Shown here in pieces: positions 10,440-64,000 of a DNA stretch of 64,000 nucleotides. The stretch lies in assembly GCA_021234155.1 (NCBI GenBank), contig JAJEKV010000237.1, positions 496,001-560,000 on the forward strand. The letters are read 5' to 3'. The position numbers and the translations under genes were made by a program. Under the pieces are notes generated by a model. That model was not told the DNA's origin. It ran no database searches and saw nothing but the letters and a program-made list of their open reading frames with translations. Numbering within the stretch: position 1 is the stretch's first letter; every line of letters begins with the position of its first letter. This stretch comes from Isoetes taiwanensis (Eukaryota > Streptophyta > Lycopodiopsida > Isoetales > Isoetaceae).

Positions 10440-11030
10440 CTACTCTAGGAGCATCAACTACAAGCTTTAGGGCCTCTACCCCCTTCCCAATACAAGGAGT
10501 TCACGTAAATACATCATCCAAATATATCACGTAAGAACTAAAGAACTAGATCCAATCATAGAGTTAGGTTCTTTAGTTAGTGTCCGAGATCTAAGATCTA
10601 GATAACTACTATGGGCAATTTAATAGTCTAAACCTACTGATTCTATGACTAGAAGACGGTTTAAGCTATTAAATTGACCAAATACCTGATCCTTGAGTGG
10701 CTCCTCCCGACCCGAAGTTCAACCATCCCGCCGAGCTGATCGAATTCGTGGAAACCGATGGCATGAATTGGCTTTTGGCAGCCGTGGGAGGCGGTTTTGG
10801 CTCCTGGGGCAGCCAAAACTGAGCTCTAAAACCCTAAGGACAAAAAAACTAGCAAGCTAGGGTTTTCCTACCCTAAATAGACATGGGGTTTAGGCTAGGG
10901 TTTCCAATTACCCAATTTGGCATGTGGGATAATTGGAAAGGCCCCACTTGCCTTTAGTGGCTAGGTGGCAAAATATGCCAACATGGAAAGGTGTGCCTCA
11001 TTAATGTGCACATGTGCACATTAATAATAT
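10440..11030. other. AT-rich spacer with nested inverted repeats
   Basis: No gene is seen. The arms AACTAAAGAAC (10536-10546) and GTTCTTTAGTT (10568-10578) are perfectly complementary. CAATTTAATAG (10616-10626) pairs with CTATTAAATTG (10666-10676), and the second pair extends to about 19 bases with two mismatches. The palindrome AGATCTAAGATCT lies between the two pairs. The block separates two GC-rich segments. Confidence 0.5.
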
Positions 11031-12330
11031 ATGAACACTCCTAGCAAGTTGCCCCTAGGGCTACTTACCCGCTATCCGTTATGCATACACGCCAATCGGG
11101 TGGCGGTACGCGTGACGTGGCAAAGACAATGTACGCCCCGGAGCGATATCGTCTTTGGAACGCCACAAGACCGATTGGGCCAAAGTCGCCCGGGTAGTAA
11201 CACGCAATTCCTCCGCGGTCCTCGTTGGGTGCACTCATTGAAGACGCGAGTAGCGCTTAGTATCCCGCAAATCAGGTAGCTCGTGACCAAAGATGTTCCC
11301 ATGTTTCCATGAGGAAGATAAGGTCCATGTCCATGGCGACGGAATTGAGATCTGCCCCCTTCGCCATGGGAAGCCACGGCAATTCCGGGGATACCACGGC
11401 AGGCACGATCCCTATTTAGCGGCAGTGCATCGCCACTTCAGTCCCGGTGGTAGTGGTGGTCCTGTGGGAAGCGGAAGATGTGGGATGCTTGTGCCGGGCT
11501 GGGCCCCTCGGAGGGGACTCGAGGGGCCGGAGTGCCCCGCATCCCCGTTTGGCTGCTGAATTCCCTCGCATCCTTCCCTGACCAGCCCCGCCTCTCCATG
11601 TCCGGGCGGCAGCCCCCACTTTGGCCGCCAGGAGCTTGCAGATATGAGGGGGCGGTAGACACCGTGGTTGGCAAATTTATGGAAGCGGGACGCAGGATGT
11701 GAACCGGTAGAGCAGAGACACCGTGAACCCTCGCCCCCTGATCCGTGCCGAGGTTGAGGAGGCTAAGGCCACGCGACGAGGAGCACAGCCCTTCCGCCGT
11801 GAGGTTGAGGAGGCCGCCACTATGAGATAAGGAGTCCAGCCGCTTTGAAAGCAGCCGCGTAATCGAAGCGCCGAGTAAGGATTTAGCACGAGACGGGAGC
11901 TACAGAGCTTCGGGCCGCCGCTGCTCAAAGAAGGCAAGGGCCTCCATGCCGCAGGCACATGAGCAACTCCGCCCATTGCACGGAGATGGCAAGACATGAC
12001 AACGCCCCCGCAAGAGCCGAGCCCATACCCTGGAGAACGTAAAACCACAAAGAAAGAACACACCAACCCCGCGAACCCACCAACATATTGTGGTGTCAAA
12101 CCGAACACCGGCTAGCGGACACATCGGATCACGCCGGCCGCCACCACCCAGGCGCCCGGCCACCCTTCACGCCCACCCACCTCAACCAACACACATGCCC
12201 CCCCGAACTCCCAGAAACGAGACGCAGGAGCCGCAATGTGGTATCGCGAGGCCCGACGGAGGAGTCGGGAGAACATCTCACTTCCCAACTCCAGACACAG
12301 ATCTTGGACCGGATGATGAGGAAATGATAG
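11031..12330. other. GC-rich block of unknown coding
   Basis: This stretch is strongly GC-rich compared with its flanks and has open frames on both strands, none with a motif I recognise. By composition it resembles the LINE at 6394-10430 and may be a retroelement 5' part (ORF1 or gag-like), but I have no domain evidence. Confidence 0.3.
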
Positions 12331-13623: not shown

Positions 13624-16337
13624 GAGTATATCCTTGGTTAGTTTTTTTTTTGAGGGACGTCAAGAATTTATATTATGTAAAGAAGAAAATACACAGGGAA
13701 GGATTAGATGAGGTGGAAATAATCCCCCCAAATCCTATCCTTCTCCTCACCTGGTAAGTTAGAGACTTGAAATTGATTATATAGCCTAGACTTGACTTCT
13801 TGGAGCAAAGATTGAGCAGTAGAGAACTTCCCATGAAAGATGACCTGGTTCCTTCTCTTCCAGATTACCCAACAAATGATAGCTCTACAAATGTTGAAGG
13901 CGACCTTCTTAACACGAGGCCAATTAGTTGGAAGAAGACCCAACAATACTTGTTGGCTACTAAGGCGATGTCGAAAACATGACCGTGTCCATGCCCAAAT
14001 ACATTGAATGTCGGCACAAAGGTAGAAGCAATGCTCAATGGTTTCCGGCACAATTACAAACCCGCAGAGTGGGCTTATTGTCGGCTTGAATGAGTGAACT
14101 TTAGTATTCGGCCCTAAGTGCACGATGCTTAATCCGCAGAGAAGAACTGGACCGCTTGGGAGGGATACTCTTACACCAAATGGAGCTCCAAACCTTCACA
14201 TATTGATCCTCTTCCACCCTAAGCCGCCAGTGGGAAGAAGGTGGCCGGGCCCGGAAGCCGCCGATATGCATAGCTACTCTTGACAAAGTTTTTGCCAAAC
14301 AAACTGGTGGGGGTAAGCACCAAACCCTCCTCCGTAGCAAAATTGGGGACCAGAGGAATGTTATCCGCAATCGCCCGCACAGAGAAGTCGCACCAACGCA
14401 TGCCAAACTTACGATCAAAACCATCCCATGAAAGGAGACGACCATTCTCATACCACGCCTCCAAAGAAATGACTCCAGCAGCCCTCCATCTACGCTTGGT
14501 AGCAGGGTGCATAGTAGCAGCGATGGGGAGATGAGGCATGGGAACCCACAAGAAAGGAGAAGAGGTCTGGGACCAATTGGCAGGATGAAGGGAAATGAGA
14601 GGCCTAACTGCATCCCAAGCTTTAAGCAGTCCCTTCAATAATGGAGAGGCCTGAGGAGTGGGAGCAAGGGGATACAATAAAGCCCAAGGCAAAGGGGGTT
14701 CAATACCTAATTTACCAAGAGCTCGCGGAGTGCCGCAGACCGAGCAATAAGACGTGTGCCTGAAGACCGATGATCATTGCAAATAACTTGCCAGATAAGT
14801 TTAGAAGCCAGCAGCTTGCCATGTAGAGCTAGATCAAGCATCCCCAAGCCGCCATGGTTCTTAGGGCGGACACACTTACTCCATGCAACTTTAACTACCG
14901 CCCCCAACTCATTACCGCCCCATATGAAATTACGCACAAGTGCAGCCATCTCCTTGAACTTACTAGCGGGTGCAAGAAGCGCGGAGACCGCATAAATGTG
15001 AGTACTGCAGAGCACTGACTTAGCCACCTGTATCCTGCCTGCCATTGACAAAGAAGCTCCTCGCCACCATAGGAGGTGCCTCTGAAGACCCAATAAGACT
15101 TGATCCCATGCCTGGGCTAGAGAAACGTCCATACCAAAAGGGATTCCGAGTAATCTAGTCACCTCCCCAGCTGGTATGACTTGCCATGGGTAGCAGTACA
15201 AGCAATTGGGGGGAGGAGTGTCTAGAGCCCAGATTGCACTACATTTTTGCCAATTGAGCAAGCACCCTGAAGCCAGAGAGAAGATATCCAGGAGCTGCTT
15301 AGCTTTATCAAGGTTGTCCTCATTAGCCTTTAGTAAGAGAAATGTGTCATCTGCAAACTGATTACAGATAACTTGAGAACCATCCGCCAACTGCAAACCC
15401 TCAATGAGGTCATCATTTAAAGCACGACGAAGAAGCTGAGATAAACCTTCAGCCACAATGGTAAATAGGAATGGAGCTAGGGGGCAGCCCTGCCTAATGC
15501 CCCTACTCACAGAAAATATCCGCGAAGGCTCACCCTGGAACAGGACCGCTGCTTTGGCAGAACATAGGAGCTTCCACACAAGAGAGCAAAAGGATGGTCC
15601 AAAACCCAACCTAGGCATGATCCTCAAAAGAAAATCCCAGGAAACACTGTCATACGCTTTGGCAAAATCCGGCCAGATATGCGACTGCTGTTTGGAGGCA
15701 CGTGCCCAATACATTCCCTCATATATTTGTTGCAACATTGTTCAAGATGTGTCCGCCTCGGTAGGAAACCCGCTTTGCTCCTCACCGATTGAAGTGCCAA
15801 GAATAGCTTTGAGTTTCTCAAAGATAAGCTTTAGCAATAATCTTGTAAACCACGGCAACAAAGTGATCGGCCTCCACGAGATATATTTCGAGGCTCCTTA
15901 ACCTTAGGGATGAGGGCAATTAAGCCAGTGTTCAAAATTCTATCCAATTGGTGAGACTGCAAGAGCTCCTGATATGCTTGCCAGACTAGAGTTGATGACC
16001 ATTCCCATGAAGCCTTGAAAAACTCAACTGGAATACCATCCATACCTGGACATTTGTCGTTAGCCATCATTTCTACAGCAGATTGAAGATTGTCAAGGGT
16101 GAGAGGAAGCTCCATCTCTAGTTGCTGCGTTGGGGAAATAATAGGTTGGAGCTTGGAAAGAACGATGCTCTTCGCTTCCTCCTGGAAAGGTAGGTTCTTT
16201 TCTTGAAAAAAGTGAGCAAAGTGTTCTGCTAAAAAAGTTTTAAGCTGGTTTGGATCAGTCACGCATTGACCATCAGATAATTGAATAGAGGATAGAGCTG
16301 ATCTTTGACGTTTCAAACGAGTATATCCTTGGTTAGT
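13624..16337 (-). mobile_element. 5'-truncated LINE with 19-bp target-site duplication
   Basis: The 19-mer GAGTATATCCTTGGTTAGT is present exactly at 13624-13642 and 16319-16337. Between the copies is a minus-strand LINE. Its poly-A tail appears as a T-run at about 13642-13651 directly against the left copy. Coding pieces run in order from right to left: RT fingers, RT palm, thumb or connection, and a zf-RVT/C-terminal region ending GDYFHLI near 13704. Truncation at the 5' end within the region before the RT domain is typical of incomplete target-primed reverse transcription. The exact, long duplication points to a fairly recent insertion. Confidence 0.92.
13704..16318 (-). pseudogene. LINE ORF2 (reverse transcriptase and zf-RVT), broken
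   Basis: The order of motifs is clear. KCPGMDGIPVEFFK and LNTGLIALIPKVKEP (about 15900-16080) form the start of the RT domain. DFAKAYDSVSWDFL, SRGIRQGCPLAPFLF and QFADDTFLLL (FADD at about 15344-15357) are the palm motifs. LSMAGRIQVAKSVL and HGGLGMLD follow in the connection region. The C-terminal part (13704-14123) has a Cys/His segment IEHCFYLCAD and WVIWKRRNQVIF, the plant zf-RVT pattern. The reading frame changes at about 15740-15830, 14700 and 14120, so no single protein is made. The endonuclease and ORF1 are absent because of 5' truncation. Confidence 0.88.
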
Positions 16338-17165
16338 GCTACTACTTTCTAGAAGTCTGCATAATGGGAGCTCTAGAAGGAAAAGACCAAGAACATGAAT
16401 GTACAAGGAGAACAACAATTGTCTTTTAGACACTACATCTTTACATGTCAAGCTCTCTTTCACATGAGCATTATTGATTTCGAACCCCTATAATGAGAGC
16501 TGGTTGAAAGAAAGACCATTATTCTAGGGTTTGATAGCTTCCTTTCCACAAAATCCCTCTCTACTGAAATTACTGACCCCTCTTTTGCTCCTTCTGCCAC
16601 TAGATGTCTTGCAATCTTGAACATGATGCCAGAAAGGTTGATGAATGTATGTTCCTAGCCATAGTCATTACATCTAAGGTGGCTCCAACACCTTATCTAT
16701 TCAAGAAAGTTTAATGACGAATTTTGGTGCTTTTGCCAAAGCCACCACTTTCTTATAGGTACGTGCTTTCTATTCGAGAGGTAGCTAAATGCCTGGTACA
16801 TAACCTATTGCAAGTTCAACCCAAATAAATTACCTACCAAAAGACTAACAACTTCATTGCCATTACAATGTTGTGCATCCTTTATTATACATAAATCCTC
16901 ATCATATATTCATCCAAATATTAAAACTCCATTACAACCTCGTCAAATTACAGACACCCTCTAAGACCAACTATTCTAAGGTCTACAAGGGCCAATTCAC
17001 TAAAACATCCTTACGACAATGTCTTGAGGCCTACAAATGCAAAATTGCATGCTTCCTTCTACTATCCACATTTGCTAAAACCCGGCAACGCCGGGCACCA
17101 TAACTAGTCCCTAAAACAATCGATTAAGTTGTTATAAAAAAAAAAAAATATACATTCAAGATAAA
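16338..17165. other. gene-free stretch containing a Helitron 3' end
   Basis: No gene is supported between the LINE and the SINE-like repeat. The plus-strand Helitron terminus at 17081-17107 lies here; its 5' end was not found. Confidence 0.5.
17081..17107 (+). mobile_element. Helitron 3' terminus
   Basis: The perfect hairpin CCCGGC-AAC-GCCGGG (17081-17095) is followed after eight bases by CTAG (17104-17107) and then T. This is the Helitron 3' end: a short GC hairpin about ten bases before CTRR, inserted before T. The same terminus recurs at 34394-34421 and, inverted, at 38411-38439. Confidence 0.7.
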
Positions 17166-29034: not shown

Positions 29035-31850
29035 TTAATGTTGCATCTATACTCATACTTTTTCACGATAGACAACATAAATTCAAATATATTCCTGCTT
29101 GCATTGTGGCAATTTATCAATCTTGTTAATTTGGAAATTTTGGTGTGGAGAAAAATATTTTTGGATTTTTTCCTGCCTGATTTCCTAAAGGTTTTGGGAT
29201 TTTTGGCACCTGAAAAGAAAAATCGTTAGTCCAAAAATCGGGAATTTTGGAATTTTTTTTGGCATGATTTCATCTGCCCTTTCTAATCTTCAGGGCATCG
29301 ATTTGCTCCTTTCTGTTTTAAGCAGAGCAACAGGCGGGGGATGCCGCACTGGTCATGGCAGCATGGATTGCGGCCTTGCACAATATCTCTGAGGGTTTTA
29401 GTTTTATAAAAGGGAAAAATCGTTTGCTGGAGCTTTCACCTGCAGGTTGAGATGGAGCTTTCACTCAAGGGCATCAAGAGGCAACCAAATCAGAGGTATT
29501 TCGATTGATCCAATTTCGTTGTATATTATAGAGAAAAAATCTGAGAGAAAAGATCTGAGACAAGTTTGCATTCCAGGTATAGTTTGAGGCGAACCCATTT
29601 TCTAAACCACAGCTCAAGATCAAGGCTATTATCTGTTGATGCATGTACTTTCCGCAGTAAAATGAGTAGTAATCTGCATAATTTTCATTTTGCATTCCAA
29701 TCTGTGACAAGTAAAGGCAAAAGCTTTAAGATGTCAGTCTCATCTCCTCCAGACACGCTAATCTTTTTGCTATTCCATTTTTGACATCTCCTCCAGACAG
29801 ATCCATTTTGCTACTCCGTTATTTGTCAAGGACATTCTTTCTCCAATTGCATGTAAGAAGCTCTTTGATGCTGGGAGTTTGGTATGCAAGACGTTGTGGC
29901 AACTATGCCACTGTGCAGATATTCTAATAATATGCTCAATTTCTATTTGATTCTACAGGTTATGCCATGGAGAGCATGGGCATGCGACTTTGTCCAATTA
30001 GCAACATTTGCTTTTAAAGGGTTAAGCCTTATGTGTTTCTGAAGGTTGGGAACTTCGTAAAGAGTATTAGACACAACTCCTTTCTCATCAATCCTGTTTT
30101 CTTAAAGGTATGGAGCCATTTTTGCACTAATAATGATAATATTGTTATACAACCTAAGGTCTATGTTGAATGTATTAACATGGCTCTATATAGTTCCAAT
30201 GGATAAAGAAACCACTTCTAGATTTGTTCAATTTATCCTTAAATTATACTGACTGTGCATTAGGGATCATTTGTTTTTTCTTATTATTTCACTACATTCT
30301 CTCTCTTTCTGCCTCTGTTTTTTGGACCACATACCCATGCTTGGCTTATTTTATTGCATCATATGTGCTATGGTCATATAATGGTTATTGTTATTAGACA
30401 GAGTCATAGACATGGCCTCTAATTTTTTTGATTATGGTGTAATTAGCAAGAAAGCATTTCGTCTCAACTATTTAATTAACACATGGCTCTATTTTCAGAA
30501 ATCAACACTAGAAGATGATATGCAAAACGACAATGTGCAGAAGAATACCGTATACGCAGGTTACTTTCAGATCCATAAGTGTTTCCTAAAAAGCTTGGGA
30601 AGTCATACAGTAGAAGTGTGTTCCGTATGCAAGCAGTGTTAATGAGAAAAACTTACGAAAGATGATTAACTGCCATAATTTTGCAACATGTGGAGGCAAG
30701 TGTACCCCTGTAAATAAATTCCACAGTTTATCTGCTAGAAGGGACATTCGTGTGACCATCTTTCTATTAATCAGTTAACTTCCATTTTGGTTTAAGTGCA
30801 GAAGCTGCTAAAGGTAGTATTACACAAAGCTATACGACTTATTTGGAGCGATACATGTATCCATTTGATTGCATTCTCATTTATGTTAAGACCAGGTATT
30901 GCAATTCAATGCCCATATCCTGTTTCAAAAGGTGTGGATATCCACTTTTTGTGCAATTGATTTATGTTCATGCTGACCAGCCATTCAACAATAAAATATG
31001 CTTCAGGGCCATTATTGTGTATTATTCAGCTGAATGGTAATTTAAGATGACACTTGGTATATTGTATATCAAATGTAGATCCAGATTTAACAAATTGTGA
31101 ATCTCAAGCTTGCCTCACTGTTTTTCTTGAACTTCTTTCAATTGGCAAATATTCATGGTCATTGCTATGTGTATTGTTGTCAAACGTCTCTAGCGCGATG
31201 CATTTAAGTGTTCTTCTACGCATCTATATTTAATGTAGTTGGATCTCACATTCTACTTGACTGGTTATAGCCTCTCTACTGCAAAATGCAGTGATGTCAT
31301 TTTCTGTGGTTGAATTGATGATCCATTAATTGATGTTTAATTACGTTTATTATAGCAGCAAAGTGTTCTTGAATACCAGATATGTCTTACTTTGGTTGAA
31401 ATAAAGTAAATGAATATAAATTGCAATTAACTGCTTTACCTTTTGGATATGGGAATGGACCACAAGTAGAATCAGTTTAATTCAATTAATATAGAAAGGT
31501 TCCAAGTAGATTATGCATCATCTAAGCTCTTTGTTTATGATCTGTTGTTTGATCTATAGGTGATCTTGAATATTCATCTTCAAAGAACGTGGGCTCTCAA
31601 TTTAGTTGTTTTTCCAGCCCAACTTCCTATTATAGGAACTCTTGGTGCCTCTTCAAGAAAAGCTATAGTTAAAAGAGTTGGTTACTTCTATGTCTGCCTC
31701 AAACTCTATCTGATATGATAAGATAATAAGTGGATGCATCAAGCGTTTATTTCTATGAAACCTAATCATTCCCTATTTGCAAAAATGGCAGTGCAAGCAT
31801 AGATCCAATTATTTCCTCAAATTCTATCTCCATGTTCATCACAATAGCTT

Positions 31851-32150
31851 GAATAGAATGGTGCTAAGCTTATCCCGAAGGTTGAAACATAAAACATCTT
31901 TGATAATAATATACATTGCTGGGAAAACCTTCTACTCAATGTGCCTTAATATTTTCTTGCTAATATCTACACATCAATAGCTTGACATTTTGCTGCTTCA
32001 TCACAGTAGCTGAATAGACCTATAGTCAATGGTGTTAAGCTTATCTTGAAGGTTGAAACATAAAACATCATAATAATATACATTGCGGGGAAACCTTCTA
32101 CTCAACGTGCCTTAATATTTTCTTGCTAATATCTGCACATCAATAGCACA
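31851..32150. repeat. two-copy direct repeat, about 130-160 bp
   Basis: The sequence from GAATAGAATGGTGCTAAGC to ACATCAATAGC (31851-31981) is repeated at about 32012-32147 with small indels. Among the differences, CATTGCTGGG in the first copy reads CATTGCGGGG in the second. Confidence 0.75.
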
Positions 32151-32278
32151 TATTGGCATGTGCATTTGGCATATGTCATGTTTCCATTGTGTATATTATA
32201 ATATTCACAACAACATGATGTAGATGCTCATACTTGCCATCGCATGGAATGTGTTACATACCTTTTAAAAGTTCATAA

Positions 32279-39705: not shown

Positions 39706-41990
39706 CTTTTTCTTATAACAAATATAACAAATAGGTCGATCTTCTTTCCTTGATTTCATTCAGTACATGTGACCGGAAGACCAGATTCTTTTGTTGCGGA
39801 AGACCCAATTCTAATTATGCATGTCAAACAGAATTGATTTATTTTCACCACCTGGCCAGTACCACTATTCATATCATACATGTTTAAGATTCTATTATAA
39901 GAACATTCACTATTCACTGTACTAATATTTAACCTACTACTAACCACGCATTCCTGTAAGTATTATCCTGTAGTAAACATTATGTTGCATCAAACCTGTC
40001 ATAAACCTGTATCTAGATACATATGCATCACTGTAGCTCTTATCACATCACTGTAGCTCTTATCAGTGATGCCTGAATTCCTCCTTCTCTTAACCTATAA
40101 ATATTATTGTATCTAACCTGTAAGAATAAAACATGCATAAAATAACCAATAAAAAATTTGTTGGGCAACATATGAAGTAAATTTGCAAATTTAAATCAAT
40201 TATTGAGAACCTTGACATTGTTATATTGTATAGATCAGGAAGAAAGATATGCAAAATGATAGGACTTCGGGTATGAATACTAAAAGTCAAAGCAAAGAGT
40301 AGCTTGCAACCTTAATTTGCCCATCCAAATCAAAATATATTGCTGCCTTGGTAGATGATCATTTCCCCGTGTAACTTATATGGGCTTCAAACCTGCCAGT
40401 GGAAGCAAGAAACAAATAAAGATGCCAGTCAGTCTAAGCTAAATCCTACCTAAATTCATGGCGCATGCTTTTAAGGCAGTAAGAAATGTCATATGGTTCT
40501 CTTCACCATGGGCATCGTGGGCTTGTATGCCACTGTCTTCCAGTTTTTCAAACACTCTAGAGCTAAAAATTGGATTCTCCATGGTTGTATGTATCTAGCA
40601 ATCATTGCATAGCATAAAACATCATGTCATATTGGCATATTGTAAAGACATGACAGGCTTGGCACAACTGTCCGCACTTGGCATAGATATCAGCCAAGGT
40701 ATTTTCTATAATTGTACCAGATTAAGACCATTGAACTGTGATCTGATCTATTATGTAATTTGCCCCAATTCATTATAACCTTGAAGCGACAGTAATTACA
40801 AAGTACGGAAATTCAGAAGGCTATAAATCAGATGTCTAGAAGATAAACCTAGCTCTAAATTATTCGAAGAGTCGGACCAAATCTTCCTGGGCAATAGATC
40901 TAAGCACCAAATTCATCATCATAATAGAGTTAGATTTTTTCTAGTCTGCAAAATAGCACAAATCTACCTGCTAAAAACCTGCAAAACTAACCTTGGGATG
41001 TATTCATCCATAAAATACCAGCAGAAAACCCCATGTTCTTCATAAAAGTAGTGATCCAGACATGGCCAACATAATTAGCTCTTCCACAGTTGGCATCCAT
41101 AAAAACGTTTTTCCTGCAGGTAGCATCTCAATATTAGCAGAAACATAAAAAAAATCAGATTCAGAACGAATTTAAGGCGCATCTATCATAACTTTTTAGG
41201 ATTATAAATTTTGAAACAGAAAAGTTTAACCAAAAGCATTCATCAGGACTCTGATAACATGGCAATCCCCATATCCAAGATTCTATATGAAGCTCCAAAG
41301 ATCTCAACTTTCCACAGATTATGAAAGCCTACTACGATTGCCATTGAACGGAGTCTAGTGCCACCAAAACCTTCAGGATAATGACTTACCACTGCAGACT
41401 CAAATGAAGACATGAAGACAGAAGTTCTGAAACGAAGGTCTGCCAAAACTCGGAAGAAGTCTTCGTGGCCTGCCCGTATGCCGAGATTGTGGCAAAGTCC
41501 ACCTCTTCCAATATCGCATTTGGAAATCATAGAGAAACCCGGCGCACAGCTTCTACATGTTCTCCAGATGTCTCTCCTCCAGCAGAAACCTATGGAAAGC
41601 TGTAAATAAGGCTGAGCAGAGATTGAAGATGTAGTTTTGAAACAAAATTGTTAGCGAGCAATGGCATTACTACTTCACAATTATAAGGAAGACCTACATT
41701 CAACACAGGTTCTGTAGAACTTTGTCTATCTATTGCTCCATTATTGCACATGACTAACCCCAATTTCTCAGATGCATAAAGAGGAGAAGGAAGAAAAAAT
41801 ATTAACATGCATATGGAAAAATAACATGCATAGTCAATGTTAAAAAGGACAATACCAGTTGCTATCCTGCATAGCTTGGCAGATCACGTCACTTGTGTTC
41901 AAATCGATAACAAAAATGGGTAACATACCTAAATGCAAGTTCTCTACTTAGAATGTGAAGTCCATCATTGCTCTCATCCTTCTTACTATT

Positions 41991-42202
41991 ACATTATTGT
42001 AGAAGAAGTGAGGACAAACTATTTGGAATACTCTTATGCATGCTAATATTTATGCAAGAGACTAATCTTTTACCTGGCCAATCTGACTCATACATTACAT
42101 TATTGTAGAAGAAGTGAGGACAAACTATTTGGAATACTCTTATGCATGCTAATATTTATGCAAGAGACTAATCTTTACTCGGCCAATCTTACTCATACAA
42201 TA
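41991..42202. repeat. 106-bp tandem duplication
   Basis: The unit starting ACATTATTGTAGAAGAAG occurs at 41991 and 42097. The copies are identical except near the ends, where TTACCTGGCC reads TACTCGGCC and ATCTGAC reads ATCTTAC. Confidence 0.85.
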
Positions 42203-43926
42203 TCTTCCATCGTAGACATCTTGCATGCATGAAGCCTATACATCGAGTCTCAGATACACTCATGGAAGGAATGTAGAGCCAAAATAATATCTATACAAAT
42301 AGCACAAATTCAAAAAACAAATATAAACATCTGGACGGCCTATATTTGCCCATTTGTTTGTTTGACCCAGATAATGCTTCTTGCACATAACCCCTAAAAT
42401 CGTAGTGATATCATGCAAAAAACCATGTGCAGATGAGAACAATCAGAGATCGAGTCATTTGGAATCACATCTCTCCTCCGCCTATGCGATCGCAGTGCAC
42501 AATTACCACATGTACCGGGGACATGAGAGATAAGGAGGACCCCTCGCTATAGACGGGTCACCCTAGACGGGTCACCCTAGACGCTTGACACAGAACATAA
42601 ACACGCATGTAGTCTACAGACAAAGAGTCTACATTGCAGTGAGCAAAAGACATAGGAAGAGAGGTAGACAACCTAACAACAAAACCAATGTGAAGAATAA
42701 GAACCATCAAGGAGAAGATTGAAAAAGGACAAGAGTCCACATTGCAAAGGAGCAAAAGACATAGGAAGAGAGGTAGACAACCTAATTGGAAAAAGGAAGA
42801 AGCAAAACCGAAATCCACATATTATTCGTGTAAATATCCATTAAAATATTCAGCCCCAACAATTGTGTTCCTATGAGTGAAGCTAGATCCGAAGACACAT
42901 TTTAAGCTACAACTTTCTTCGTCATTAGAAAACCATGAAAAGGCAAGTTTAATAATACCTAAAAGATCGAAGCTTCTTTTCTCGTAAAAAATGGCATAAA
43001 TTATTTACCCAGATAGTGAAAAAGTTAGAATCGTGAGAATCGACTTGAAATTGACAAAGAACAATCAAAGAACACATGCAACAAAACAAAGAAGTCTTCC
43101 ATGCCAAAATCGTAGCTCAGATCTTCATGTTGTGCTCATGCCGCTAAAAACTGGGGATCGATAAGAGCTCCCAGAATTGGGCAAAGAGCTAACAGGCTTT
43201 CATCAATTGGCAAAGAGCATGCAATAGCAAGGCTACCAACCATTTCTTTACCTGGCAAAGAACTCTCAGCACCGAGACTACCAACACCAGAACTACCACG
43301 ACCAACCATTTCAATGTTTTTTATAGCTCCAGAATTTGCATGTGCCCAATTTGCATGTAGCTCCAAATTTACCACCATCCCTATCGATCTCCCGACACAT
43401 GAAGAAGATCTAGCCGTCTCCTCACGCGTGAAGAAGGCAATCCGAAGTCCTCGAACCCCTAATTTTTAGTCCAGTATTTTTTTTTTCATTCTATCTCATT
43501 TTTTGTTCATCTGAAAAAAATTCCGGCAACCAAAAAACCCCAAACCATAGCAAAGTAATCTAAAAAAAAAATCTAAAAAGTTTTTGGGGTGCCGGAAAAA
43601 CCAAATTTAAACAATAGATAAGCCATCCAGGCTCCATAACCATAGCCAATATAGCAATAACCAAAGCATGTCACACTGGCAAGGTGAAACAAGAGAGGTG
43701 CAACTGGCCTTTGTATCAGCAGAAAAGTGGAAAAGAGAGGGAGGGGAAGTAAGCTCAGGAAAATTTCCAAATTGGAGATACGCACAGAAGCGTTGATGTG
43801 AAAAACCTACAGGCCAACCTAGAAATAGGACGAGAGCTAGGCAGTTGCTAACTGCTCGGGACACTTGTCCCCTAGTTCTAGAAGTCCATTTACCATCTAT
43901 TGGTTGAAAACGAAGGTAAACGTGAC

Positions 43927-54592: not shown

Positions 54593-55412
54593 TTAAGACA
54601 AACGCATTCGGTTAAACAGATCATGTAAAGTGATAGTGAAATACCTGTGATATAGGTGTTTGATAACCTCTTTGGGATTGTATGCCAGTCCAGGAAAGTC
54701 CTGCTTCAGTATCTTGCATACGTTTCCAAGAATTGTTTTTTCATCGAACCCATTTTCAATAAATTGGGCTATGATGCATTTCAGATCTGTAGCACTAATA
54801 CAGTTGCTGTTTACGTAAAGACACGGCATCACTTGAGAGCAAATTACCTTACTAGCTTGAAAATAAGGTCTGCATCCGTCTGCCATGATGAATCTTTTTG
54901 CTTTGAAAGGTAGGGCATCCCTCTTGTCATACTTGTACGTACAATAACTCCCCAATGAGGCATCCAAAATCCTGATTTGCATATTTAGGAAGGAGGCAGA
55001 GGTACCAATTCTGCTGTACTCATCATAACCAATGAAGTCCTTAGTTTCTTCTTTGATTTCAATAAAGTTGAGATTATAAAGCCAAATATCCTTGTCTTTA
55101 TCAAAAAACTCTTTTGGGTTGCCACAGTTAATAAGTAGGAGATCGTCCATATATCTAAAGGACTGTCGGAATCTCGCAATGTCTGAATAACGGCCTTCAT
55201 CTGCTAGTTTAAGTATGAAATTGACTTCATACCATGCCAGATAAATATTACACCAGCTGGGTGAGCAGGAGAAGCCCATGGGTATGCCGCAGATCTGTCT
55301 CCAAGTTCTATCATCATTACATAACCAGCAGTTTTTTATTAACCATACATTCATGTCCACCAAGTTTTTGCAGGTCATTTCCTTCCAACAATCTGGCTGC
55401 TTACTCTTTGTA
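54593..55412 (-). mobile_element. retroelement with unusual reverse transcriptase, 5'-truncated
   Basis: This is a 261-residue open frame containing RT motifs. GIPMGFSCSPSWCNIYLAWYE is the primer-grip/B' region and FRYMDDLLLINC carries the catalytic YMDD. The C-terminal thumb-like part reads ADGCRPYFQASKVICSQ and FIENGFDEKTILGNVCK. The B' motif differs from LINE (QGCPLSP) and LTR elements, and it more resembles Penelope-like or domesticated rvt-type reverse transcriptases. That assignment is tentative. The frame stays open upstream to about 55412, where it meets the end of repeat 'A', and the fingers domain is lost. No GIY-YIG endonuclease was seen in the downstream 800 bases. Confidence 0.6.
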
Positions 55413-55462
55413 GTTATGTGTTAGTTGTTATCTTAAAAAAAATTTGGGCCCTTCGGGCCCTA
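55410..55462 (+). repeat. dispersed repeat 'A', 3' end with hairpin
   Basis: AGTTATGTGTTAGTTGTTAT, an A-run, and the perfect hairpin GGGCCC-TTC-GGGCCC (about 55447-55461) form the end seen inverted at 20435-20490. The junction with the reverse transcriptase lies at about 55412. Confidence 0.6.
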
Positions 55463-55862: not shown

Positions 55863-56048
55863 CAAACATTGCACGGGCATCCTGCAGAGCTCTAGGTTTA
55901 CCATAAATCTGAGCAAGCTAGTTTCCTAAGATTGCATTGCACGGGCATCCTGCAGAGCTCTAGGTTTACCATAAATCTGAGCAAGCTAGTTTCCTAAGAT
56001 TGCATTGCACGGGCATCCTGCAGAGCTCTAGGTTTACCATAAATCTCA
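55863..56048. repeat. 68-bp tandem repeat, about 2.6 copies
   Basis: The unit starting GCACGGGCATCCTGCAGAGC occurs at 55871, 55939 and 56007. The copies are nearly identical and the third ends within AAATCTCAGC. Confidence 0.9.
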
Positions 56049-56194
56049 GCCTAATCATTGATGTAAACTTTGATCATGAATAGTAGAAAAAGTGCTATAC
56101 AGAAAAAGATTTGAAATAGCATTACATTTACAATCAGGCTCCACGGTTGAGGCTCCTTGCAATCTTCCACAACCACCATTGAAACCACCAGTGA

Positions 56195-56909
56195 AATACC
56201 TCATGTTTGTGATGTCTTAGGCAGTAAATAGTTGCATGGCAGTCAAGTATATAGGATTCATACCATCTTCAAGCATCCTGGCAAGTCAATATATGGCTGT
56301 ATTAACATCAGAATCATTCATGGCTTTTTTCAGTGCATCAAATAATCTGCTTTCTGAATCATCTGTTTTACTTGCATCTTCCCTACAGCAGATCCTGGAT
56401 CGATATAAAGCTTCTTGAATATCAGCCAGAGTGACAGAGATACTTGTTTTCGCATACTGTGGCACCATGCCATTGCCATTACCTCTAGGTAGCTCTAATC
56501 CAATTTCAATTCTTCTGCTGCTCATTGAGGGTTTGGATTAGATCAGAGACTTCTATTCCATATTGAAATCTCTTGAAGGGTCTGCTGTAATCATTTGATG
56601 CTAATTCCCTCAGTTTTTCCATTATTCTCTCAGCAGATATTTTCCTCATTGCAGCAGGACCATAAGGTTGCATCATTGAGTTATTATTCTTGTAGATGGC
56701 TTCTGATAGAACCATTTCTAATACATTCAAAACCACTGCAGCATCTCCATCTGGAACCAGAATAAGAAAATCTCTTCCATTCTTCTCACTCTTCACGTCT
56801 GCCACTAAACTTTCAGCAAGTTTACGAAGGACACCCTGTTTTTTGACATTCATAGCCCTCTTAACAATTTTTTTCAAGTGGCATAACTGCAGCTTGTTTG
56901 TACTGAATA
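56195..56909 (-). pseudogene. WRNIP1/RarA-type AAA ATPase, C-terminal exon, broken
   Basis: The exon starts after a TTTTCCAG acceptor (intron end at 56910) and reads VFSTNKLQLCHLKKIVKRAM, then LVPDGDAAVVLNVLEM, which matches the sensor-2 (DGDAR-LN-LE) region of RarA/MgsA/WRNIP1. After a frameshift at about 56520 it continues SVTLADIQEALYRSR and LFDALKKAMNDSDVNTAIY. A TGA replaces the usual Trp, and LARMLEDGMNPIYLTAMQLF follows. This is the family's [20 protein letters not shown] segment. Members act at stalled replication forks. The N-terminal AAA part is not contiguous, and the tetramerisation domain downstream is lost after another stop. It is a fragment or pseudogene, though single-base errors could account for some breaks. 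Confidence 0.7.
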
Positions 56910-56986
56910 CTGGAAAATATGCTAACAAGTCTAGAATTATAACCCTGTAAGGACTATTCACCATAGACAAGCAAATCACAACCTCT

Positions 56987-57522
56987 TTAGATTTCGCATG
57001 AGGAACAAGATGGTGTACTTACCCAATCCTTCTCCTCTGGACCTGGGTCCAATGACAGATACATTTTCTTGCGGAGCCATGGAGTGATAAGGAAGAAAAG
57101 TAAGTAAGTAAAGTACAAAATCAAAGGATAGCCATCTACATAGCCTTGATGGTGTGCAAGAGGAACCAAAATAAGCCATGCCAATGTAGTTAATAGAACA
57201 CAAAACTGCCCATATTGGTTAGCTTTCTTATGATATGCTCTGTAAGTACTTACAAGAGCTGCAATTCCACAAGGCCATATCACTAAAAACCAAGTAATAG
57301 ACATCCAAATAAGAGGATCCAAAACCACAGAAAGCGTCCATGATCCAAATATCAAACCAAGGGCACCGATAGTAGCATACTTCACAGCCATAAGAGCTGT
57401 CACCTTGCTAAGACTATCAAGCATTTGCACCCAAAATGGGCGGTCATCTACTGGTTCAAAAATATTTGTCCATGGATGCACGGGATGAATATCTGGATAT
57501 TTGGGCTGCTTGGAGTTTCTGT
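56987..57522 (-). CDS. multi-pass membrane protein, possibly EMB2759-like, partial
   Basis: The frame reads NSKQPKYPDIHPVHPWTNIF, then about four hydrophobic segments (ALMAVKYATIGALGLIFG; WMSITWFLVIWPCGIAALVS; FCVLLTTLAWLILVPLA; LILYFTYLLFFLITPWL) with the signature PCGIAALVSTYRAY and GYVDGYPLILYF, and ends near EEKDW. A GTAAGT follows directly; it may be a donor, or the frame may run on to a stop at 56987. The pattern recalls a plastid membrane protein known in Arabidopsis as EMB2759, but I cannot confirm this. Upstream, an acceptor-like TTCCTCTTCAG precedes the segment and a P-loop ORF lies just beyond it. Confidence 0.45.
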
Positions 57523-57547
57523 CTGAAGAGGAAGCACAAACACATAC

Positions 57548-57686
57548 CCGGGTTCTGTGCAAGCTGCTGCTGCTGCTCTTGTTTGCTTAACCTAAAAAGG
57601 GATTTCACCACGGTGGTTTTGCCGGAGCCAGGAGGACCAACGAGACAAAAGCAGGAAAAACTATCACTTTTAGAAAATCGACGCAA
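57548..57686 (-). CDS. P-loop-containing ORF or exon, unknown
   Basis: The frame contains CLVGPPGSGKTTVVKSLFRL, a Walker A-type motif (GPPGSGKTT), followed by KQEQQQQLAQNP. It ends at a GTATGT donor-like site (57547). The start is unsure. Removing the 25 bases to the next CAG joins it in frame to the membrane-protein ORF. It could be an exon of an NTPase gene; the Walker A by itself does not identify one. Confidence 0.35.
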
Positions 57687-57795
57687 TGATCGACGATATT
57701 AGGGTCAGAACTAGAAGCGACAGAAGGATGTAGAGAGTACCTGGATGAATCTAATAAGCCAGACTTTTGCTCAGACTTTTTGCTTCTAACCGGGA
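57687..57795. other. short spacer left of the Copia element
   Basis: Nothing is recognised here apart from the upstream open part of the P-loop frame. Confidence 0.4.
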
Positions 57796-57800
57796 TGCTC

Positions 57801-58043
57801 TAATGATAAACAGAAACTGAACACGAAAAAGCTATCTTTCATTGAGAATAATTCTGATCTTATACATCTGTGGCGGTGCTACAAATAGCAGCCTCACCGT
57901 CATGCCTAAATTCAGGAGCACTCAATGGAAGTCCCTAAATCTATGGAACTAAAACCCTGTGTAAAACCTAGTGTCCACCAAACTGTTACCACAGTAAAAG
58001 ACAAACGTCATTCTTGTCAATGGTTAATACAATATAACCAACA
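57801..58043 (-). repeat. Copia 3' LTR, 243 bp
   Basis: On the minus strand it begins TGTTGGTTATATTGTATTAA and ends TTTATCATTA. It is equal in length to the right LTR and flanked on the outside by TGCTC. Confidence 0.93.
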
Positions 58044-58054
58044 CTCCCCCTCAA
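58044..58054 (-). other. polypurine tract
   Basis: On the minus strand TTGAGGGGGAG lies directly upstream of the 3' LTR. This is the usual priming site for plus-strand DNA synthesis. Confidence 0.85.
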
Positions 58055-58205
58055 GTATGACTTTGTCTACAATGTTACATCTCTGCAGACAAAAGGAATT
58101 CAACAGCATATGCTAAGTACAAAAGACTGAACTTAAACAATGCTTTTGAAAGAAACTACTCTAAATGCTTCAACTTAAACATAGCCTTCATGAAACGTGA
58201 CTGCT

Positions 58206-58493
58206 TCAAACTGGAATCATCCCCATCTCTTCAATACATTCATGAAACCTTTTCTTCGGGATTGGTTTAGTGAACACATCTCCTGTCATAAGATGTGTGC
58301 TGAGATGCTGGATGTCCACCTTCCCTTCATCTACTTTTTCTCTGCTGAAATGGAACTGGGTCTCGATATGTTTTGCCTTAGTAAAGTTGTTGGGGTTCTT
58401 TACTAGGCTCACTGCTGCCTTATTATCATTCAGGATCAGAGTTGGCCCCCGCGATGTTTCGCACCTATTTCTTTCAGAAGTCTTCTGAGCCAA
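58206..58493 (-). pseudogene. Copia RNase H, C-terminal part
   Basis: The frame reads RGPTLILNDNKAAVSLVKNP, then AKHIETQFHFSREKV and GDVFTKPIPKKRFHECIEEM. These are the Copia RNase H DNxxA and KHI--r-HF-RE motifs and the standard polyprotein end. It is the last coding piece before the polypurine tract. Upstream (58500-58860) the linking sequence is broken. Confidence 0.85.
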
Positions 58494-58859
58494 ATGGCTT
58501 CTTTAACAAATTTGCACAAATTGCCATATACCGGATTCACATGTACTAACCGGCCAGAGTCTTCGCTTTTTTTCTTTGCACTAACCGACAACTCCCCTTG
58601 TACCGAAAAGCCGATCGCGAGATTTGCGGGGGTAGCTCTTCAAAGATGATCGGCATCAACATGACCGGATAAAAGAAGCTTGGTAGGATGTGAACCTTGG
58701 TAGCAAATCCCGACATGAGGAGTGGCTTTGAGATACCTAAGGATGCGTTCCACGACCGCCCGGTGTGAAGGACCGGGACTTTCCATGAATTGGTCGACGG
58801 TTATGACACTCTCGGCGATGTCGTATGGTGCAAACCATAAAATGCATGAGTGAACCGAC

Positions 58860-60154
58860 TATGCTTCAGAGGGCACATCCAAAGCATCTATGGTGTTTGT
58901 TTTTAGAAGGAGATTCAAATGTCAAGGAGCAATTAATAGGCGGAGTGCCTACCTCCCGACATTAGTCCATCTTGCATTTTTGAAGAAGAGAAGCAATACC
59001 CTTAGATCGATGAAGAGTAATGGTGTGAGCACCTCATCACGGAGAACTTGCATCCCTAAAAAGTATTTCAGCTCACCAAGATCATCATGTGGAACTTTTG
59101 AGCAAGACTTGCCTTCATTTCTTTGTGATCAAAGATTGCTGATTGGATGCTAAGATAAGGTCATCTACATAGAGGACAATAAGAAGAAGGTCAGTGCCAT
59201 GCCTCTTAACATATACATTCCAATCTGCATTGCTCCGGCTAAAACCGTGAGAGGTGAAGAATGCATGAATAGTTTTGTACCACAGGCGAGGGGACTGTTT
59301 GAGCCCATAGATGGCTCGGTTAAGTTTACAGACCTGTTCTTCTTTGCCTGATACCTGATAGCCTGGTGGTTGCTTCATGTACACTTCATCATCAAGCTTG
59401 CCATGCAGAAATGCAGACTTCACATCCATTTGCTGCAAATCAAGGTCCAGGGCTGCAGCCAAGGCAAGTACAATGCGCACAGATGTGAGCCTGGCCACAG
59501 GGGCAAAAGTCTCACTATAGTCAATTCCAGCCTTTTGTGAGCAACCTCGGGCAACTAGTCTTGCTTTGTAACGAGACACCTGATTGTGTTCGTCATACTT
59601 GAGTTTGTATACCCACTTGCTGGATATGGCTCTTCTCCCTGCGGGCAGGTCACACAAGGTCCACGTGTGATTCTCAAGTAAGGAATTAAACTCCTCGTCC
59701 ATGGCTTGCTTCCAAGAAGGATGCTCTGGACTAGTAAGAGCTTCATGAAAGGTCTGAGGTTCTTCCACCGGGGCAAAGATTTGTGGAAGGCAATATAAGA
59801 GGAGCTTTTAGGCTTTTTACTCTCAAGATAGGACAACATTCGATCCGTAAGCTTGGAAGCCCTGTGAGACCTTCTTGGTGCATGCTCGACTGGTTCAACG
59901 TCAGGCTCTGATTCAGGTTCAGAGGGGAGATCAGCTTCGTCCATGGGAATGTCGGCATCAAGGACTTCATTTGGATCAGAATCCGAGTCTGAAGTTTCTC
60001 CTTCAAGATGGGCAGGAGAGAGAGGATCTAAGACCAAAGGATGGCCACTGGAGCCAATGCTGAAATCAGTTTCGTTGAAGCTAACACTGCGCCTGATGAT
60101 CATCTTATTTGTGAGAGGAACATACAGCTTGTAGGCTTTGGACAAAGGTGTCAC
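58860..60154 (-). pseudogene. Copia reverse transcriptase
   Basis: Frames 59555-60154 and 59115-59768 read, in order, a Ser/Glu-rich linker, HPSWKQAMDEEFNSLLENHT, WVYKLKYDEHNQVSRYKARL, then DLQQMDVKSAFLHGKLDDEV, the conserved IYGLKQSPRLWY and LLIVLYVDDLILA with the catalytic YVDD. These are the Copia RT palm motifs. The frame breaks near 59770 and after about 59115. Confidence 0.9.
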
Positions 60155-60265
60155 CAGAAACCTCTACGAACATACAAGGGATAGATCTAGCAGAAAGCTT
60201 ACCTTGTTTCCTTTCAGCTTTTGAGAGATGTGCATAGGCAGTGCACCCAAAAATCTTAAGACCAT

Positions 60266-61195
60266 CTACTGAAGGCTTGAAGCCAGACCATGCTTCCTCA
60301 GGTACACAATCGAAAATGACTTTGGTGGGAACTCGATTAATAAGAAAGAGCTAGGCGGTACTAGCCGCGCCAGCCCGTAACTTATATCTGAAATACCTTT
60401 AGAGAGAATCATGGAGCGAGCACACTCCAGAACAGTGCGATTTTTCCGCTCGACAACACCGTCTTGCTGATGTTCATGGGCTACCAAAGTTTCATGATGG
60501 ATGCCTTCTCCTGCAAGGAACTCTCCAAATTCACCATTTATGAATTCTCCCCTTGGTCGGGCTTCGATACATTTCACCTTTCTTTCTTTGAACTTTTCTC
60601 GCGAGCTTTCCAAACTTTAAAATGACCAAAGACTTCATTTTTCTTGTGCATGAAATAGATCCAATTCTTCCTAGTGAAATCATCGATGATAAGTAAGAAA
60701 TACCTGGAACCTCCAATGGATCTTACTCGAGATGGGCCCCAAACGTCCATATGCACCAGATCAAGAGCATTGAATGCTCGATTAACCTGTTTTTTTTTGT
60801 AGGCTTTTCTACTAAGCTTTTCCAAAGCACAGCCTTCACAAATGCCATCTGGAGACTTTATTTTGGGCAGGTGTCAGAACAAAGTTTTGGTCTTTCATTT
60901 GCTTAAGCAGCTGAAAATTAGCGTGGCCAAGCCTCTCATGCCATATTTGATTGGGGTCAGTCCTGGCTGCATTAAGGGCTGTGTGCTCCCTGCTTTTACA
61001 CCAACTAAGCTTATAAAGCTTGCCTTCTCGTTCTCCTTGAGCAAGAATGGTGTGGTGTTGATCTCTGATCAGGCATTTGCGCCCACCAAAAGTGACATAT
61101 AGTCCTGCATCATCCATTTTTGAGATGGAAAGCAAGTTAACTTCTAAATCAGGGACATATAATGTCTCTTTAAGACGGATGTTCCCTGTGGGCAA
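60266..61195 (-). pseudogene. Copia integrase
   Basis: The frame 60836-61195 carries IWHERLGHANFQLLKQM, the H-H part of the GAG-pre-integrase domain. Frames 60574-60825 and 60266-60613 carry NALDLVHMDVWGPSR (first catalytic Asp), YFLLIIDDFTRKNWIYF (second Asp) and GIHHETLVAHEHQQDGVVER (the P-QN-GV-ER end with the catalytic Glu). At least two frameshifts and one stop break it. Confidence 0.88.
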
Positions 61196-61296
61196 TTCAA
61201 GGGTTACTAGACCTTTGCCTCCAATTTTTAGTCTCCCTTTCCCAATCTTAACTTTCCGTTATTGAAACTTTCTTCCGTGGAAACAAAGGCATCCTT

Positions 61297-61512
61297 TTAC
61301 CGGGTCATGTGGTCGCTATGCCGCGAGTCAAGGTACCAAGTGCCTTGCGAGATTTGTGCAATCAGTCCATGATGAAGCACATCCCATGGATCCAGATTAA
61401 ATGAAAGCATTAGTTTGTCTGCTGTGCACCTGATCACAGTCATGACGCTCAGGTGAATCCAAATAATACAAGCAACTAGTGCCTTCAGAATTGCCATGGC
61501 AGCCATATCCAC
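61297..61512 (-). pseudogene. Copia protease remnant
   Basis: ISQGTWYLDSRHSDHMTR corresponds to the Copia aspartic protease start W-LDSGASDHMT. The active-site Asp is kept, but the following SGAS reads SRHS, so the catalytic triad is destroyed as written. Confidence 0.7.
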
Positions 61513-61739
61513 TTTGTTCCTTCTTATGGTTCCAAATTCTTCTCAAGGGCAACAAAAGCATGTGCAATGAAAACCGAGGGATCCTTTGCTTGAGGAGTAT
61601 TACGATTTTTGATTCACTACTATCTTCACTCTCCCGAGATGCTGCGTGCCCTCGAGCCTCCTTTTTCTTTTTCTTTGGTTCTTCTTTCTCTAATATCCTT
61701 TGCTTTTTTTTTTTTTTCTCCTATCGGGTTCTCCAGTCC

Positions 61740-62514
61740 TTTGCAATATGACCAATCTTATTGCAGTTGAAACATTTTCTTGTTTCATTTTCTTCAGTTC
61801 TGCCAATTAACGCAGCTTGCCCTTCTTTGGCTGAGGATGCTTTTTTGCCCCCTGCTTGGTTCATCTCTTCCATAAGGATCTGCTGGCACGCCCATTCAAG
61901 TTGGGCGTCGCTCGGATGAGCCTATTACGTTCTTCACATTGTTATAGCTTGAAGGTAAGCCTAGTAACAATGCACCCACAATTAGGTCATCTTCAATGCC
62001 CTTTTCCATTCCTTCGGTTGAGTCTTTCTTTGCTTTGATCTTGGAGATATACTCCTCTGCTGATGCATACTCCTTTAACTTGGCAGTAAAAATAGTTGCG
62101 TACAAGTTAGCTTGCTGAGAAAAATGTTTTCTCTTGTAGATTGCAACCAGCTGATCCCAGGCAACCTTAGCACTTTCCGCTGATTCTACCCGAGCAATCA
62201 TTGTGTCATCAAGGTACCGCATCATGCGGCTCCTTGCTTCCCGATCTTTTACGCAACCACTTGAGCGAGCTTGCCTTTCGGCATCATTCTCCCTCGTCTA
62301 ATGCTTCAACCTTGTCTTCAGCCTTAGCGGTTCCTTTTGAGACTGAGACGGCAGTGGGAGATGGTACCTTTGGTCGTGGTTCATCACCAGACACGATGTG
62401 CCATAGCCCTTTTGCTGAGAGCTTCCCCCGAACTTTTATGAACCAATAGAACTTCGTTGGAGTGTGATAACTTTTCGATCCTTCCCATTTCCTCTCGAAG
62501 TTTGATCGATGCAC
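61740..62514 (-). pseudogene. Copia gag with zinc knuckle
   Basis: FYWFIKVRGKLSAKGLWHIV (about 62350-62460) and AWDQLVAIYKRKHFSQQANL with a LLLGLPSSYNN end are typical Copia gag (UBN2-like) segments. Further on, CFNCNKIGHIAKDW at about 61740-61790 is a CCHC zinc knuckle whose last Cys is Trp. The frame is broken at about 62230 and 61890. Confidence 0.85.
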
Positions 62515-62534
62515 TTACTCACAAGAATCGTTAC

Positions 62535-62545
62535 GCTCGATACCA
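62535..62545 (-). other. primer-binding site, tRNA-iMet type
   Basis: On the minus strand TGGTATCGAGC directly follows the 5' LTR. It matches the initiator-tRNA-Met PBS TGGTATCAGAGC except that the CAG reads CG (one base missing). Confidence 0.8.
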
Positions 62546-62788
62546 TAATGATAAACGTAAAGCCCGAACACGAAAAAGCTATCTTTCATTGAGAATAATT
62601 TCGATCTTATACATCCGTGGCGGTGCTACAAATAGCAGCCTCACCGCCATGCCTAAATTCGGGAGCACTCAATGGAAGTCCCTAAATCTATGGAACTAAA
62701 ACCCCGTAAAACCTAGTGTCCACCAAACCGTTACCACGCGAAAAGACAAACGTCATTCTTGTCAATGGTTAATACAATATAACCAACA
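62546..62788 (-). repeat. Copia 5' LTR, 243 bp
   Basis: It has the same ends and length as the left LTR, and is flanked outside by TGCTC (62789-62793). Compared with the left copy, almost every CAG/CTG is replaced by a CG-containing variant. Confidence 0.93.
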
Positions 62789-62793
62789 TGCTC

Positions 62794-64000
62794 GGGACTT
62801 TTTTTTGGGTTGCCCGGGGGGCAAACCCTCGCTTATGTGGGTATGTGGGCATATCCAGTATATATGCCAAGATATGCCCAAAGATATACCGGTGATGCTA
62901 AAAACCGGCCGGTGTGCCCGTAAGTGTTAGGTCGCCGCCGTTGTCGGGTGGATCTTTGGCAAACCGCTAACCGGCTGGAAAAACAGCAAGATCCACAAGC
63001 AAGAAGCAGTCCATGCCATATTCTAAGCATGAAGATTTTGTGGATTCTAAGCATGGGATTTTGTGTGTGTAGGTGGATGCCCTAAGCCTTCTCATGGTCG
63101 TGTTGGTTGTGCAACCGGAAAAATCCGGTCGGCTTTGGTCGGCGGTGGCTTCCTTTATCTCCGACCAAAGCAAAGGCGGCTATGGGAAAGCATCGGGTCT
63201 CTAGGATTGCAGAGCTTGAACAGCTATGAAGCATGATCATATTCTTCCGAAGGATGGCAAAACGTGGAGTCCCTAATTGATCTTTCAAGCTGCGCAGCAG
63301 ACAATCGGCTGTGTACTTTGAATTCCGTTTTGAATTGATGTAATGTTTGCTTTTAAATGATTCTTCTATCATGAAAACGTCCATTACATGCCTTTAATTT
63401 CTACTCTTGGCCATTTCTTGAAGAAGTCTCTTGGCATGCTAGTCATGGGCAAATTTGGATGTAATAATGCAGTGGCGAGATGTAATTGCACATGTTTGAG
63501 ATTTTTTGTTTGTAATTGTTCTTCCAGATGCTTCCACACGCACTTAGTATGTCTAGCCTAGAGAGTTTACAAGTGCTTGAGCCAGTTCACATCATACACT
63601 TATTGGTATTTCAATGCCATCTTCGGATGATGTAATGCTTACATTTCAAACGGACCTCTTAAGAAGTCGGTTCAAGAAGTGCGAGTTGCGGCCGACCCCT
63701 TAAGAAGTTGATTGAGAAACCCTTGTACCGCCAAGTGGGAAGTTCCTCTTTGCTTACTAAAACCCAGTTCTTGATGCGGGTAATTTGATGCAAGGAATTC
63801 TAGATTTGAACTAAAGATATTTCTCTTATCCGCTTGTAGTTCACATTATGGCTTCAATGAGCATTTTCATTTGCAGATTCGATGTTGCAGAAGTTCTCAA
63901 TTTTGTGGTCTTATATTTCATCAAGGATTTAACTAAAGCGGCTGTTCTACGCAAGGTCGGTTTACGCACGCACCAGCTTAGAGTAGGCGGACCAGATATT
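62794..64000. other. gene-free stretch with repeat 'B' copy 2
   Basis: No gene is supported up to the window end. Near the start (about 62807-62870) TTGGGTTGCCC...GGGGGCAAACCCT, TTATGTGGG and CATATCCAGTATATATGCC match repeat 'B' at 22117. A short local duplication of CTTAAGAAGT lies at about 63658-63712. Confidence 0.45.
62807..62870 (+). repeat. dispersed repeat 'B', copy 2
   Basis: This matches 22117-22190 with a few differences, two of which change CTAG-containing sequence into CG-containing sequence. The Copia element is inserted just to its left. Confidence 0.5.

Follow-up and report, generated by a model that had tools for sequence, protein, structure and literature searches.

Long terminal repeats of an Isoetes taiwanensis Ty1/copia element differ almost only at CAG/CTG, most likely through an assembly artefact

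The two long terminal repeats (LTRs) of a Ty1/copia-type retrotransposon in the assembly of Isoetes taiwanensis differ from each other almost only at CAG/CTG, where the right copy carries CpG. Judged from the assembled sequence, this difference most likely stems from an artefact of the assembly and not from the biology of the element. Very probably, consensus errors from native-DNA nanopore reads, in which methylated CAG/CTG would have been called as CpG, remain uncorrected in the right LTR and in further short patches. The evidence is local: it comes above all from the LTR pair, then from the primer-binding site (PBS) and from blocks along the element, and weakly from one integrase site.

Results

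The element covers positions 57801-62788 of the window (the whole stretch of DNA that was analysed, 64,000 nucleotides), lies on the minus strand and measures 4988 bp (Table 1). Its LTRs comprise 243 bp each, as the original prediction had stated, and TGCTC forms the target-site duplication on each outer side. On the minus strand, the Pfam matches follow each other 5' to 3' as Retrotran_gag_2, zf-CCHC, Pol_BBD (E 4.9e-08), gag_pre-integrs (E 5.9e-10), rve, SH3_retrovirus (E 3.4e-12) and RVT_2; the integrase core rve stays below its cut-off (E 0.0074), and Pfam gave no match to RNase H among the element pieces tried. In copia elements, the integrase precedes the reverse transcriptase. This order, with gag in front of it, is found here together with an LTR pair, a short target-site duplication and a polypurine tract at the 3' LTR, which places the element with Ty1/copia. 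A PBS of the tRNA-Met type is in place at the 5' LTR, but its sequence differs from the conserved one at the CAG. Scanning viral_contigs for relatives of the reverse transcriptase piece returned none. A similar layout is described in the passages of PMC3852365 on the Jatropha elements Jc8 and Jc9, which share a length of about 5 kb, short LTRs, the polypurine tract GAGGGGGAG and a PBS adjoining the LTR without spacer. By our reading of a table in PMC3852365, their LTRs span 210 and 161 bp, respectively, as compared to 243 bp here. In contrast to what those passages give for Jc8 and Jc9, the PBS of the present element departs at the CAG and its reading frame is broken at many places.

Table 1. 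Coordinates of the element, its parts and the patches discussed in the text (positions are those of the window).
Feature	Position	Strand	Remarks
Left target-site duplication TGCTC	57796..57800	.	Sequence
Left LTR (3' LTR of the minus-strand element)	57801..58043	-	9 CAG/CTG, 4 CpG
Polypurine tract GAGGGGGAG, abuts left LTR	58044..58052	-	Sequence; same tract in Jatropha Jc8 and Jc9 (passages of PMC3852365)
Internal patch, CG-rich and CAG/CTG-poor	58450..58856	.	3 CAG/CTG, 25 CG; CAG/CTG share of CA/TG 3/54, p 0.027
Reverse transcriptase piece, RVT_2, E 1e-65	59118..59807	-	Pfam; within CAG/CTG-rich stretch
gag_pre-integrs, integrase core (below cut-off) and SH3_retrovirus pieces, three frames	60108..61258	-	Pfam
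Stretch without CAG/CTG	60511..60704	.	5 CG, o/e 0.86; takes in integrase Asp to Arg site (about 60548-60568)
Small patch across frame change	61231..61370	.	1 CAG/CTG, 7 CG; share 1/18, p 0.34
Copia-type gag (Retrotran_gag_2, E 1.5e-21) and zinc knuckle (E 1.2e-05), two frames	61724..62297	-	Pfam
CAG/CTG-poor, CG-rich patch: gag start, PBS, right LTR, outer flank	62178..64000	.	26 CAG/CTG, 80 CG
PBS TGGTATCGAGC, adjoins right LTR	62535..62545	-	Sequence; Jatropha copia form TGGTATCAGAGC (passages of PMC3852365)
Right LTR (5' LTR of the element)	62546..62788	-	1 CAG/CTG, 13 CpG
Right target-site duplication TGCTC	62789..62793	.	Sequence

Alignment of the two LTRs gave 17 differing columns, of which 13 are substitutions and 4 are gaps. 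Merging changes that lie within 4 columns of each other yields 8 events; splitting the first event into its CAG and its CTG leads to the nine differences that the original prediction had counted, eight of them on a CAG or CTG of the left copy. All six sequence pairs quoted there are present in the sequence, while a two-base gain before one CTG had been passed over. Only one CAG/CTG out of 9 in the left LTR, the CAG at 57889-57891, is kept in the right LTR; the other 8 are changed. Seven of the 8 merged events touch CAG/CTG, compared to 1.36 expected under random placement, and only 1 of 200,000 random placements of 8 events reached seven (p 5e-6), so that the claim of a pair differing almost only at CAG/CTG is borne out. 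Substituted columns tell the same: 12 of 59 columns within 2 bases of CAG/CTG are substituted vs 1 of 182 elsewhere. The differences are in this way restricted to a methylatable motif, as expected of a methylation-linked error. Other CA/TG triplets (CAA, CAC, CAT and their complements) are changed in 2 of 28 cases in the BLAST alignment and in 1 of 27 in the global alignment. The sole merged event off CAG/CTG is a T/C difference at 57900 / 62647; an artefact leaves both this difference and the intact CAG at 57889 unaccounted for.

CpG is present in the right copy at every one of the 8 changed sites, in agreement with the CG-containing variants that had been predicted for one copy. At 7 of these sites it lies inside the aligned triplet or is offset from it by one base, and at the eighth it adjoins a two-base gap. 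Overall, CpG rises from 4 in the left LTR to 13 in the right, while CAG plus CTG amount to 9 and 1. By our own count, 3 of the 8 sites differ by a single transition and 5 carry extra substitutions or indels: one CTG is preceded by two extra bases, and another has lost two bases.

To decide which copy is altered, the PBS serves as the main reference. On the minus strand it reads TGGTATCGAGC, while in the passages of PMC3852365 all nine Jatropha copia families have the form TGGTATCAGAGC. The deviation from TGGTATCAGAGC falls exactly at CAG, within the same patch as the right LTR. A PBS altered at its CAG beside the right LTR suggests a change on the right side, not on the left. A second and weaker reference is the integrase piece at 60269-60616, which has Arg where the solved integrases 3dlr (E 0.28) and 3oyi (E 0.71), both weak matches, have the Asp of SDQG, which we take to be a catalytic integrase residue; these two alignments were examined among 16 matches listed. 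By both references, it is the CG-containing state that appears altered.

Along the element (57801-62788), CAG/CTG events and CG events are grouped into alternating blocks, with a runs z of -3.93. The controls gave -0.87 for CAA/TTG, -2.19 for CAT/ATG, +0.37 for CAC/GTG, -0.70 for these pooled and -1.07 for AAG/CTT/GAG/CTC. A two-state segmentation marked the patches 58450-58856 and 62178-64000. The latter crosses the element end at 62788 and runs on into the flank, and so does not belong to the LTR as such. For 14 stretches we compared the share that CAG/CTG make up among CA/TG, with p values uncorrected. It was low at p < 0.05 only in 58450-58856 (p 0.027) and in the flank 62789-64000 (p 0.034), while the stretch 59070-60500 is rich in CAG/CTG (54/225 of CA/TG, p 0.0055). 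The share was not significantly low in the right LTR alone (1/28, p 0.073), in 62178-62545 (6/49, p 0.56), in 60501-60720 (2/26, p 0.30) and in 61231-61370 (p 0.34). CAGG/CCTG amount to 0/29 in 58450-58856 and 62178-64000 together vs 46/198 in 56000-58449 and 58857-62177 (p 0.001), a contrast that was noticed post hoc; a preference of the surviving CAG/CTG for CAGC was not significant in the two sets (12/29 vs 53/198, p 0.12). The segmentation also flags 1318-2935 and 6586-12266, where CAGG/CCTG are normal (9/34 and 30/109) and which may simply be GC-rich.

Several further tests added no support. Clustering against CG is stronger for CAT/ATG than for CAG/CTG, both across the window as a whole (z -11.8 vs -9.2) and in 57000-64000 (z -4.34 vs -3.71). 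A count of stretches of at least 200 bases that lack CAG/CTG was tried as window-wide proof and rejected: the window has 29, where 100 first-order Markov sequences averaged 3.47 with at most 9 in any one, but this count is not relied on because control triplets cluster too. In 500-base bins, CAG/CTG make up less of CA/TG as CG o/e increases, which is a weak effect (rho -0.27, p 0.002). Among 18 further repeat pairs in the window, which are mostly diverged or short, changed CAG/CTG gaining CG were not in excess (6/49 vs 40/225 for control triplets); the pairs 31835/31997 and 41981/42088 show one similar site each. For a test of the polyprotein frame, 15 pieces were chosen by eye from 116 ORFs, and 12 of the 14 junctions between them change frame. 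CG is not significantly enriched at these 12 frame changes (p 0.19); one of them coincides with a homopolymer of 14 bases, and some are located in stretches rich in CAG/CTG.

Discussion

The LTR difference would most likely have arisen as follows. The C of CAG/CTG in plant transposons is commonly methylated. In human DNA, 5-methylcytosine occurs mainly before G. A basecaller trained mainly on 5-methylcytosine in this human-type CpG context would take the methylated C of CAG for the C of a CpG. It would keep the C, place a G after it and distort the following bases, sometimes with bases gained or lost, and CTG would be the same misreading on the opposite strand. A misreading of this kind predicts the form seen here. 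Such an error would recur across reads and survive the long-read consensus. Later polishing would then have mended the left LTR and the reverse transcriptase and missed the right LTR, the right flank and some internal parts. The sequence itself shows the specificity for CAG/CTG, the CpG that results, the blocks along the element and the altered PBS; the platform, the methylation, the training effect and the uneven polishing are all points that we infer. Transposon CHG methylation normally spans the whole transposon body. Together with the alternation every few hundred bases, this would point to uneven correction of the assembly and not to uneven methylation. The original prediction had favoured a base-calling error at methylated CHG; this is supported as the best explanation, one that we still infer. 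Our confidence in the artefact is slightly tempered, since a number of patches fall short of significance when taken singly and the pattern is not in excess among the remaining repeat pairs.

Precedents for parts of this scenario exist. Passages of Wick et al. (PMC6591954) report that default ONT basecallers were poor at Dcm sites, with errors at CCAGG/CCTGG making up about 70% of consensus errors, of which Nanopolish often fixed only about 70-80%. There, a methylated C is followed by A/T and then G, the same context as in methylated CAG/CTG, and the errors likewise persist in the consensus and are blamed on training data without the mark. In contrast to the present case, in which mark and platform are putative, those passages of PMC6591954 concern bacteria and describe no CpG products. 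The passages of PMC10687267 on untrained modifications similarly describe nanopore mismatches that recur at modified motifs and are not removed by polishing. However, they deal with Listeria strains and other motifs, and Illumina reads and demodified DNA were at hand there. A passage of PMC9749173 proposes that accuracy was probably lost through differences in methylation, and a passage of PMC8514461 gives CHG methylation a large role in silencing plant transposons. Among the matches listed in our literature search, we found no description of plant CHG errors that yield CpG.

Other explanations need to be weighed against such errors. If ordinary CpG decay had taken place, the right LTR would be nearer to the original and the left LTR would have lost its CpGs through deamination of methylated C. 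Steps from CCG to CTG or from CGG to CAG count as CpG transitions, and 4 of the 9 CpGs present only in the right LTR fit one such step in the aligned triplet. The other 5 cannot, and the alignment has four gap columns, while deamination would proceed by single C-to-T or G-to-A steps at CpG without indels. Decay would also leave CAA/TTG, CAT/ATG and CAC/GTG, whereas all nine right-only CpGs sit at the eight changed CAG/CTG sites; moreover, the supposedly better-kept right side carries the altered PBS. Because five of the eight sites carry extra substitutions or indels, we regard decay of the left copy as very unlikely to be the explanation, and the original prediction was right to call it inadequate. 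Sequencing error unrelated to methylation, such as low coverage or generic nanopore noise, would fit the several frame changes outside CG-rich patches, including the one at the homopolymer, but noise would not single out CAG/CTG. As the source of the LTR difference it is highly improbable.

A real mutation process in the plant, acting on methylated CHG (CAG/CTG) of the right LTR and flank with error-prone repair that leaves CpG and small indels, would draw on the same CAG/CTG specificity. Since LTRs are identical at insertion, the changes postdate it, which counts in favour of such a process. However, deamination of methylated CHG yields TAG, CAA, CTA or TTG, none of which contains CpG, and we know of no mutation domain that fits blocks of a few hundred bases inside one element. 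A process of this kind thus appears extremely unlikely. Least probable of all is that the right LTR comes from another subfamily, brought in from a diverged relative by gene conversion or recombination, or joined on by a chimeric assembly. While the patch does run on over gag start, PBS and LTR as such an exchange would have it, it also enters the flank and the target-site duplications match on both sides; furthermore, subfamily differences are not expected on CAG/CTG alone, with only 1 of 182 columns differing elsewhere.

Implications

Should the right LTR indeed hold methylation-linked consensus errors, LTR pairs in such assemblies would look far older than they are. In the present element, divergence is 13/241 columns (5.4%) vs 1/182 (0.55%) off CAG/CTG, which would change the insertion date about tenfold. 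Errors of this type could also break transposon reading frames and hide tRNA primer sites from annotation, and the false CpGs could mislead analyses of CpG decay. The signature, CAG/CTG lost and CpG gained, can be searched for in LTR pairs of finished assemblies without reads. In such assemblies, the ages of LTR pairs and the numbers of CpGs call for checking against accurate reads, while each error site would, if the artefact is real, be a trace of CHG methylation.

Further features of the window

Within the CG-rich patches (58450-58856 and 62178-64000), none of the 29 CAG/CTG sites takes the form CAGG/CCTG, compared with 46 of 198 in the neighbouring stretches (56000-58449 and 58857-62177), a contrast that was spotted after the fact. 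This gives a hint that the proposed error, the nanopore consensus calling of methylated CAG/CTG as CpG, depends on the next base.

Two tandem duplications were found as well; in each, the copies differ at a single site, where one has CTG and the other a variant that contains CG, and the alignment is displaced by one base close by. Besides the primer-binding site of the Ty1/copia-type element itself, a further primer-site-like string, TGGTATCGCGAGG, lies at the border of a CG-rich segment and may represent another element with an altered CAG.

Coordinates of the additional features
Feature	Position	Strand	Evidence
Primer-site-like string	12239-12254	plus	
Non-LTR-type reverse transcriptase	14710-16487	minus	RVT_1, 2.4e-19 (Pfam)
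Tandem duplication	31835-32155		
Tandem duplication	41981-42216		
275-aa ORF	54596-55420	minus	RVT_1, 0.0006, under its cut-off (Pfam)
199-aa ORF	56990-57586	minus	resembles membrane protein, judged by eye

The non-LTR-type region comprises two long ORFs, and the break between them (15741-15831) falls within a 238-base stretch devoid of CAG/CTG (15688-15926). The 275-aa ORF is perhaps a retroelement of a different type. For the 199-aa ORF, located 215 bases from the left LTR, a Pfam search gave nothing above cut-off. A gene near the left LTR might be the reason for the correction or lower methylation of this LTR.
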